Positions 52,855 to 54,512 of a DNA stretch of 64,000 nucleotides are shown piece after piece. The DNA is from Ancylobacter koreensis (GTDB taxonomy: Bacteria > Pseudomonadota > Alphaproteobacteria > Rhizobiales > Xanthobacteraceae), in assembly GCF_023016525.1 (NCBI RefSeq), contig NZ_JALKCG010000001.1:62001-126000 (forward strand), read 5' to 3'. Every line of letters starts with the position of its first letter. Positions within the stretch are counted from its first letter, which is position 1. Made by a program: the position numbers and the translations under genes. The notes beneath the pieces were generated by a model. It saw only the letters and a list, made by a program, of their open reading frames with translations, searched no databases and had not been told where the DNA came from.

Positions 52855-53400
52855 ATGAGCGCTTCTTCGACCGCCCACACGCCGGCCGATCTCTGGGTCT
52901 TCGCCTATGGCTCGCTGATGTGGAATCCGGGCTTCATTTATGAGGAGCGCGTGGCCGGCCGGCTGATCGGCGCCCACCGCTCGCTCTGCGTGCGCTCCGT
53001 GCACTGGCGCGGCACGCCGGAACGGCCCGGCCTCGTGCTGGGGCTCGACCGTGGCGGCTCCTGCGTCGGGGTCGCCTTCCGCGTGGCGGCGGAACAGGCC
53101 GAGACGACCCTCGCCTATCTGCGCGAGCGCGAGCAGGTGACGAACATCTATCGCGAGGCGACGCAGCGCGTCTGGCTGAAGGACGGCAGCGAACGGGCGG
53201 TGGCCGCCGTCGTGTTTCTTGTCGACCGGGGTCACGCGCAATATTCCGGGCCGCTCACCCGCGAGGAGCGCCTGCACATCATCCGTCAGGGGCACGGGGT
53301 CGGCGGGCTGAATGCCGACTATGTGCTCGCCACCGCGCGGCATCTCCAGGAGATGGGCCTGCGCGACGAGGAGCTCGACTGGCTCGCCGCGCGACTCTAG
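52855..53400 (+). CDS. gamma-glutamylcyclotransferase, ChaC-like
   Basis: A 181-residue cytoplasmic protein of the ChaC group. The opening WVFAYGSLMWNPGFIYEE is the substrate-binding loop of gamma-glutamylcyclotransferases, and the catalytic Glu is expected in AYLREREQVTN. ChaC proteins cleave glutathione to 5-oxoproline and Cys-Gly. ATG 52855 was preferred to an upstream start at 52783 that would add an unconserved leader. It stands alone between two minus-strand genes. Confidence 0.92.
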   Translation: MSASSTAHTPADLWVFAYGSLMWNPGFIYEERVAGRLIGAHRSLCVRSVHWRGTPERPGLVLGLDRGGSCVGVAFRVAAEQAETTLAYLREREQVTNIYREATQRVWLKDGSERAVAAVVFLVDRGHAQYSGPLTREERLHIIRQGHGVGGLNADYVLATARHLQEMGLRDEELDWLAARL

Positions 53401-53424: not shown

Positions 53425-53748
53425 TCAGAGCGGGGCGAGCGCGCCGCTGTCGGTCTCGGGCAGGATGCGCAGATGGATCTCATGCGCCCCGTTGGCGAGC
53501 GCGGCGCTGCGCGCCTTGGCGCCGGCCGGGCCGCTCCACACGGGCACGCGTCGCGTGCCTTCCATGCGCACGGCGATGGCCACCGCGTCGGGATAGTCCG
53601 GCGCGTCCTCGGCGGCGTAGACGGAGAACACCTGCCGCCGTCCATCGGTGCCGCGCCACAGCCGGAAGCGGCGGGCGAGCAGACCGCTGGCGCTGAGCGG
53701 GCCGGCGTCCTCAAGCGAATCGGTCCGTATGGTGTCGCGTGTCATCAT
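53425..53748 (-). CDS. small protein of unknown function under a LexA-type promoter
   Basis: A 107-residue soluble protein (106 from the second ATG at 53745). I do not recognise a domain. The readable features are GLLARRFRLWRGTDGRRQVF and YAAEDAPDYPDAVAIAVRME, suggesting a small beta-rich fold, and a C-terminal HLRILPETDSGAL. It has no signal peptide or membrane segment. The main point is its promoter: TTGACG, 16 bases, TAGATT, with GTTC-N7-GTTC over the -10 element and the predicted transcription start at the ATG itself. No Shine-Dalgarno sequence is present, so translation is probably leaderless. Related proteins may exist in other Rhizobiales, but I cannot confirm this here. A role in DNA damage response is inferred from the box alone. 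Confidence 0.8.
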   Translation of the reverse strand: MMTRDTIRTDSLEDAGPLSASGLLARRFRLWRGTDGRRQVFSVYAAEDAPDYPDAVAIAVRMEGTRRVPVWSGPAGAKARSAALANGAHEIHLRILPETDSGALAPL

Positions 53749-53750
53749 GA

Positions 53751-53783
53751 GAACAAATCTAGAACATGGTTTGGCGGCGTCAA
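53751..53783 (-). promoter_or_regulatory. LexA (SOS) box over a sigma70-type promoter
   Basis: On the minus strand: -35 TTGACG (53783-53778), 16-base spacer, -10 TAGATT (53761-53756), then seven bases to the ATG at 53748. The perfect direct repeat GTTC-N7-GTTC (53765-53751), the known alphaproteobacterial LexA site, spans the -10 element. Confidence 0.75.
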
Positions 53784-53837: not shown

Positions 53838-54512
53838 TCAGGGCCCGGCAGGGCCGGCATTCTCTCCGAGTTGTGATGCGGTGGCCGGCCACAACCGCAC
53901 GCCGGCATAGGCGGCAAGGAACTTCACATATTCCACCGCGAGCAGCCGCGCCTTGGCGAACTCGTCCGTCCAGCTCGCCTCGGCGGGGCGGTTCGGCACC
54001 ACCGGATAGGGCACCAGCTCGACATCCGGCAGGGTGCGGTTGAGCTCGACCAGCGCGCGCGGCATGTGCCAGGCCGAGGTGACCACCAGAAGCGAGCGGA
54101 AATGGTTCGCCCGCGCCCAGTCCGCCGCCTCCAGCGCGTTGCCGCGCGTGTTCAGCGCCGAGCGGCCCAGCTCGACGCAGCACGCCAGCGCCTCCTGCGT
54201 CGCCGGCACGGTGCGGCTGATGCCGGCGAGCGTGGTGTCGGGATGCACGCCGGTGATCAGCAGGCGCTTGCCACGCCCCTCGATCAGCAGGTTGGTCGCC
54301 TCGACGATGCGGTCCGGCGTGCCGGTCAGCACGACGATGCCGTCGGCGCGGCGCGGCGTCTGCGCCTCGCGCCCGTCTATGCCGGCGACGAAGGCCGCGA
54401 ATCCCGCCAGCAGCGCGCCCGCCACGAGCGCGACCGCCAGAAGCGCAAGCCGGAGCCGGCGCCGCCGGGGCGCCGGCCGGGCGCCGGTCTCGGTGGAAGG
54501 AACCTCGGTCAC
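53838..54512 (-). CDS. YdcF-like (DUF218/ElyC) membrane-anchored protein
   Basis: A 224-residue protein with one N-terminal membrane helix (LALLAVALVAGALLAGFAAF, about residues 22-41) and a periplasmic DUF218 domain. The domain shows DGIVVLTGTPDRIVEATNLL, LLITGVHPDTT, NTRGNALEAADWARANHF and VVTSAWHMPRALVELNR, all usual for YdcF/ElyC/SanA-like proteins. GTG 54512 is the start. Some members affect envelope or peptidoglycan integrity. It begins nine bases after the ftsX stop on the same strand, so it belongs to the ftsE-ftsX transcript, which fits an envelope role. Confidence 0.9.
   Translation of the reverse strand: MTEVPSTETGARPAPRRRRLRLALLAVALVAGALLAGFAAFVAGIDGREAQTPRRADGIVVLTGTPDRIVEATNLLIEGRGKRLLITGVHPDTTLAGISRTVPATQEALACCVELGRSALNTRGNALEAADWARANHFRSLLVVTSAWHMPRALVELNRTLPDVELVPYPVVPNRPAEASWTDEFAKARLLAVEYVKFLAAYAGVRLWPATASQLGENAGPAGP

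Follow-up and report, generated by a model that had tools for sequence, protein, structure and literature searches.

The Escherichia coli protein Cho is induced in the SOS response, and SidA of Caulobacter is a small, damage-induced inhibitor of cell division. Division inhibitors of the SidA/DidA type carry a membrane-spanning helix. For the Hyphomicrobiales, an order of rhizobia, methylotrophs and their relatives, accounts of the SOS regulon have to our knowledge dealt mostly with genes that are shared with E. coli or Caulobacter. The repeat GTTC-N7-GTTC is the LexA motif of alphaproteobacteria (PMC3323433, PMC8565304). GIY-YIG nucleases are defined by the GIY and YIG motifs, a central arginine and a C-terminal glutamate, and a role in repair has been reported for E. 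coli Cho (PMC1564403). An SOS box was found at the Caulobacter gene CC3518, a UvrC-like gene of COG2827 (PMC1839093), and in Bacteroidetes an exonuclease with a GIY-YIG domain was predicted to be under LexA motifs (PMC8565304). CC3518, the Bacteroidetes exonuclease and Cho are precedents for a GIY-YIG gene within an SOS regulon. The small damage-induced protein DidA of Caulobacter inhibits division (PMC4211646), and leaderless mRNAs are established in the order, with 171 start sites in Sinorhizobium meliloti (PMC3616915). Among the publications listed in a literature search there was no recognised account of the family described below or of a non-catalytic, leaderless SOS version.

We analysed a 64-kb stretch of the Ancylobacter koreensis genome, here called the window. 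On its minus strand, a 107-codon open reading frame (53425..53748) starts with the ATG at 53748..53746, which is directly followed by a second ATG, and its stop codon ends at 53425. The first-pass annotation had described the upstream sequence as TTGACG-N16-TAGATT-N7-ATG with GTTC-N7-GTTC on the -10 element, and both were read as claimed on the minus strand. The -35 element TTGACG (53778..53783) is separated by 16 nt from the -10 element TAGATT (53756..53761), and 7 nt (tgttctc) separate the latter from the ATG. The LexA operator GTTCTAGATTTGTTC (53751..53765) spans the -10 element, and 2 nt lie between its end and the ATG. It was the only exact GTTC-N7-GTTC within the window, where 0.95 copies were expected by chance (100 shuffles), so the box by itself was not significant and comparative evidence was needed. 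A ChaC-like gene on the plus strand (52855..53400; Pfam E 2.7e-42) faces the 107-codon gene, and a DUF218 gene (53838..54512) lies upstream on the same strand as the 107-codon gene. Genes that were read from the sequence as ftsX and ftsE are located two and three genes upstream.

The gene was present in 43 of the 61 genomes searched, including all 30 genomes of the genus; among the loci of close relatives with named genomes, 9 of 11 were from Ancylobacter and 2 of 11 from Xanthobacteraceae. In each of the 30 genus genomes the exact box ended 2 nt before the ATG, TTGAC occupied positions -35 to -31, the ATG was kept and the spacing between the elements was constant. Most genus genomes had TAGATT or TAACTT as the -10 element. 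Two N7 positions varied in the box and -10 region (22/30) and the rest were identical in 30/30, while the spacer was mostly variable and the flanks varied as well. It is this position and conservation in 30 of 30 genomes, next to a mostly variable spacer, that gives the operator its significance. The pairwise dN/dS (Nei-Gojobori) was 0.08-0.36 in 12 picked genus pairs, which marked it as a genuine gene maintained by purifying selection.

Outside the genus, the family was widespread in the order. Profile A1 matched 38 of 149 family genomes and 133 of 397 order genomes; five of these matches (L191, L197, L200, L201 and L208) were later judged false and dropped, as their long frames looked like P-type ATPases. 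The wider profile A2 detected the family (E ≤ 0.001) in 125 of 199 sampled order genomes and 61 of 99 genera. A class-wide search matched only 8 of 385 genomes, among them the genome of the window itself and two others from the order. Several searches of plasmids and phages gave no match; one plasmid search gave L105, which is discussed below, and another gave L105 itself and a weak match in Methylobacterium bullatum. For the comparisons below, 156 homologues were used, comprising all A1 matches outside the genus (51 loci, L044-L094, and 110 fetched loci, minus the five false ones). This set leaves out L042, L043 and L095, whose genus genomes were counted already, the non-genus matches in G044, G056 and G060, matches from the A2 order search alone, and the class-search loci L096-L102. 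A ChaC match was found near 102 of the 156 homologues (79 with and 23 without a box) when flanks of 0.9-1.5 kb were searched, so that most homologues were positional orthologues.

An exact box in the gene's orientation was found upstream of 118 of the 156 homologues, in a stretch of 220 bp for L044-L094 and 300 bp for the others. By chance, about 0.4 of the 156 would be boxed, as calculated from the 76 sites that the window's own 4.06-Mb genome carries over its two strands, or about one at the highest site density seen (G054). The expectation that the box would be conserved upstream of homologues thus held for 30/30 genus genomes and 118/156 homologues elsewhere and failed for the 38 that had no exact box in this orientation. 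These were concentrated in four families, f2, f34, f35 and f12, which together held 32 of the 38 (14, 8, 6 and 4). A reverse-orientation exact site was present within 225 bp upstream in three of the 38 (L162, L189 and L209); apart from these, exact sites were absent upstream of the gene in the unboxed families. Exact sites did occur elsewhere in the genomes of the four families (16 genomes scanned), and among those listed for G358 (f34) and G054 (f19, likewise without a box) some were AT-rich. None of the seven class-search loci L096-L102 had an exact box within 250 bp upstream, and no box was present just upstream of the gene in the M. bullatum locus L260, which is nearly identical to L096. 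When the box state was placed on a protein tree (183 rows, 129 columns), seven changes were needed, which fits an old box that was lost several times; the root branch of this tree had 39% support and many of its forks were unresolved. The 107-codon gene thereby has what marks an operator of the alphaproteobacterial LexA regulon, namely GTTC-N7-GTTC in the promoter and conservation of the repeat upstream of orthologues. In one lineage (L076-L079 and L082) we also observed a further exact repeat that runs the other way (GAAC-N7-GAAC); it is located just inside the coding start, adjoining the operator, and is a possible second LexA site.

The window's own genome was scanned for further boxes. Exact copies were found upstream of recA, lexA, ssb, ruvC, a recN-like gene (its identity read from a Pfam SMC/AAA match) and a dnaE-type polymerase gene, and the remaining sites scanned showed no recognised SOS gene. 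In four of these six control genes (recA, lexA, ssb and the recN-like gene) the box had the opposite orientation, and none had it 1-2 nt before the start, the nearest being ruvC at 11 nt. The genome contained 76 exact boxes compared to 25 copies of the backwards pattern, but the backwards pattern was the commoner one in 9 of 22 other genomes, making the genome-wide count a weak control. Side observations were made at three sites in this genome. Upstream of the dnaE-type polymerase gene, two opposite exact boxes lie 46 bp apart from start to start (L250, C13:68778-68838). A radical-SAM gene (L236:1542-2810, C11 at about 881887) is preceded by the exact box GTTCTTGCTATGTTC at a distance of 26 nt and may be a splB photolyase-type gene; splB was reported to be SOS-regulated in alphaproteobacteria (PMC3323433). 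The exact and AT-rich box GTTCTTGTTTCGTTC lies 92 nt before the start of a gene for a Pfam MTaX1 (Methylase-associated X1) protein (L218:197-1408, C1 at about 2657), which is a possible SOS-linked restriction-modification locus.

The distance between box and start codon was scored in 117 boxed homologues; L152, with its box 188 nt before the aligned start, was boxed but had no scored gap. The box was located 1-2 nt before the start in 75 of the 117. Among these 75 close-box homologues, 73 had a TTG-type -35 element (TTGAC, TTGAT, TTGC or TTGTC) 35-37 nt before the start, and 73 started with ATG. None of the 75 had a Shine-Dalgarno-like tetramer, a result that follows in part from the box itself taking up the searched positions; in the genus, too, the Shine-Dalgarno stretch was occupied by the box. 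When the box was 4-40 nt from the start, a Shine-Dalgarno-like motif was found in 14 of 26, compared to 12 of 117 in a control stretch. The geometry in 75 of 117 homologues, the lack of a Shine-Dalgarno motif and the TTG-type -35 element indicated that a leaderless start has been kept as a design by much of the family and is no peculiarity of a single genome. For the gene in the window, the AUG falls at the expected transcription start, 7 nt after the -10 element, and there is no Shine-Dalgarno sequence; by its conserved geometry, the gene is probably leaderless. The proposal that the gene is under LexA control and leaderless was strongly supported by comparison of the sequences (30/30 in the genus, 118/156 boxed elsewhere and 75/117 close to the start). 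One lineage, which includes L112, L114, L123, L126, L130, L134 and L139 among others, had the box 84-93 nt before the assigned start and conserved sequence between box and start (near CTTGAAT and CAACC), which may reflect a second promoter or an extended N-terminus.

The claim that the protein lacks a recognised domain held, as it had no Pfam match at E ≤ 1. NCBIfam gave a single row for the window protein, which was noise (E 0.72), nothing was above the cut-off when 10 relatives were scanned with Pfam and NCBIfam or when the window protein and nine relatives were scanned with PHROGs, and for the 32 rows of A2, all scanned with Pfam, the matches were weak and none reached the cut-off. The lowest E-value in the library scans, 0.0039, was to unrelated families. 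The relationship instead came from the class search with the family's own profile. One of its loci, L099, resembled a GIY-YIG nuclease (Pfam E 0.0074, below the cut-off), and searches from L099 and its matches reached four bridging proteins, L104, L105, L106 and L107, whose Pfam GIY-YIG matches were below the curated cut-off. L105 (WP_231146028.1), from a Bradyrhizobium barranii plasmid, is annotated as a GIY-YIG nuclease family protein. In BLASTP it aligned with the boxed homologue L081 over 91 residues without gaps (E 5e-11), and it reached E ≤ 1e-3 against 109 of the 177 family rows, of which 71 were boxed. Its best identities over 91 aa were 44% (boxed L183) and 46% (unboxed L153), and within the genus only 3 of 21 rows were matched directly. 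When A2 was compared with L104-L107 in hhalign, the score was 98.1% (E 1.3e-13), compared to at most 0.8% for eight column shuffles and 3.6% for the reversed alignment; with A4, an alignment of six rows of which two were found by A2, it was 99.0%. L104 matched the models of UvrC (6e-6) and Cho (1.3e-5), in neither case reaching the whole-protein cut-off. In a PDB search with the A4 profile six chains of the UvrC N-domain ranked first, with weak E-values of 0.011-0.11. Designed repeat proteins that appeared in a PDB search with A2 (E 1.9e-6 and 4.5e-4) were rejected, as their scores were summed from stretches that were not significant singly. Sequence comparison thus indicated homology between the family and small GIY-YIG nucleases of the UvrC/Cho type.

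L105 and the family share a W-x-G-x-SG start, the hairpin of the GIY and YIG strands, a GA-E-H-H strand and a D-L helix. Unlike the family, L105 retains the tyrosines of GIY and YIG as well as the arginine, the glutamate and the asparagine. The family was also distinguished by its operator, since L104, L106 and L107 had no exact GTTC-N7-GTTC in their whole loci and L097-L100 had none within 250 bp upstream; no ChaC match was found near L097-L100, L104, L106 or L107. E. coli Cho and the N-terminal domain of UvrC are distant homologues of the bridging proteins. Cho and UvrC are active 3' incision nucleases with extra domains, whereas the window protein consists of a single short domain that lacks the catalytic residues. 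As described, CC3518 resembles the window gene in being a small GIY-YIG-type gene with an SOS box in an alphaproteobacterium, and it is set apart by its assignment to COG2827. As a separate observation, L105:601-963, L104, L106, L107 and L099 form a group of small UvrC/Cho-like GIY-YIG proteins with a W-x-G-x-SG-like N-terminal motif, intact catalytic residues and scores below the Pfam cut-offs, and this group is possibly the parent of the SOS family.

All five catalytic residues were retained in five of six GIY relatives. Among the 177 family rows the GIY tyrosine was retained in 53, the YIG tyrosine in none, the arginine in 1, the glutamate in 45 and the asparagine in 2, while the glycine of YIG was found in 153. 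The genus rows (21/21 used) had A and W at the columns of the GIY and YIG tyrosines, and the window protein had A, W, a gap and L at those of the GIY tyrosine, the YIG tyrosine, the arginine and the glutamate. All five residues were absent from the window protein and the C-terminal helix with the glutamate was missing. It belongs to the GIY-YIG superfamily by homology and lacks the motif and catalytic residues, a loss that makes it a degenerate relative of GIY-YIG nucleases; on the residues at these columns it is almost surely non-cutting. An AlphaFold2 model built with 12 close sequences (pLDDT 75, pTM 0.67) had strands at residues 37-45, 55-63 and 66-74, a helix at 77-85 and a strand at 90-95, and from residue 55 on this order was compatible with the GIY-YIG core. 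Foldseek gave no match to the model at E ≤ 0.001, VIA gave none that was significant, its best row being a kinase (Z 5.1), and no GIY-YIG structure was among the 50 rows listed by either program. The best 19-residue Kyte-Doolittle mean of the window protein was 0.44, so hydropathy gave no membrane span, and its longest model helix was nine residues.

The explanation that we consider probable is a widespread SOS family of Hyphomicrobiales in which a LexA-controlled, leaderless gene encodes a non-catalytic, GIY-YIG-derived repair accessory. LexA bound to the operator over the -10 element, ending 2 nt before the start codon, would shut out RNA polymerase. After DNA damage LexA would be cleaved and the transcript would start with the AUG or only a few bases away from it, and from the conserved geometry the message would be leaderless. 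By its sequence, the product is a small, probably soluble protein that derives from a UvrC/Cho-like GIY-YIG domain and has lost the catalytic residues, and it would most likely act in damage repair as a non-cutting accessory that binds DNA or a repair complex. That the GTTC repeat could instead be a chance match or the site of another regulator, leaving the gene outside SOS control, is suggested by the expected 0.95 exact matches per window and the 38 of 156 homologues without a box. This is highly improbable when 118 of 156 homologues were boxed against about 0.4 expected, the box was invariant in 30 of 30 genus genomes and the same repeat is present at recA and lexA of the same genome. A different origin of the protein, with the resemblance to the bridging proteins due to convergence and the fold being some other small beta sheet, would agree with the failure of Foldseek and VIA to give a GIY-YIG structure among the rows listed and with the low-score kinases at the top of the VIA rows. 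We regard it as unlikely in view of the ungapped BLASTP alignment over 91 residues, the hhalign score of 98.1% against at most 0.8% for the shuffles, and the strand-strand-helix-strand order of the model, which agrees with GIY-YIG.

Given a GIY-YIG origin, the protein could still work as a nuclease, its active site having changed so that Trp or Ala replaces the YIG tyrosine. The retained YIG glycine (153/177), GIY tyrosine (53/177) and glutamate (45/177) would be in line with this, but the arginine is missing in 176 and the asparagine in 175 of the 177 rows, and with all five residues and the C-terminal Glu helix gone from the window protein, activity is very doubtful. The first-pass annotation had suggested a division or replication modulator, a guess that gained no support; the family is related to GIY-YIG nucleases. 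An SOS-induced inhibitor of cell division, functionally like SidA, DidA, SulA or YneA, would match the small size of the protein, its SOS-type promoter and the genes taken for ftsX and ftsE, the second and third upstream. Unlike SidA and DidA, however, the window protein has no hydrophobic span or long helix (hydropathy 0.44; longest model helix nine residues), its family is homologous to nucleases, and the neighbour most often conserved is ChaC, so that a role as a division inhibitor is quite unlikely.

The LexA-controlled, non-cutting repair accessory, which we prefer, can be extended further, and we put this forward tentatively, as a possible rather than a likely reading. A dead GIY-YIG nuclease could serve as an order-wide SOS effector that binds the damaged or branched DNA to which UvrC-type nucleases bind, or a partner of these nucleases, without cutting, and thereby limits or times incision. 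Operator, -10 element, transcript start and start codon would be fused within about 35 bp, giving a LexA-silenced leaderless message and a translation route that could favour stressed cells. The family makes a testable prediction, namely a damage-induced, leaderless and non-catalytic relative of a repair nuclease. If this is true, a bacterial SOS protein would have been made by disarming a nuclease, and the gene would represent an extreme superposition of operator, promoter and start codon that has been conserved over much of the order.
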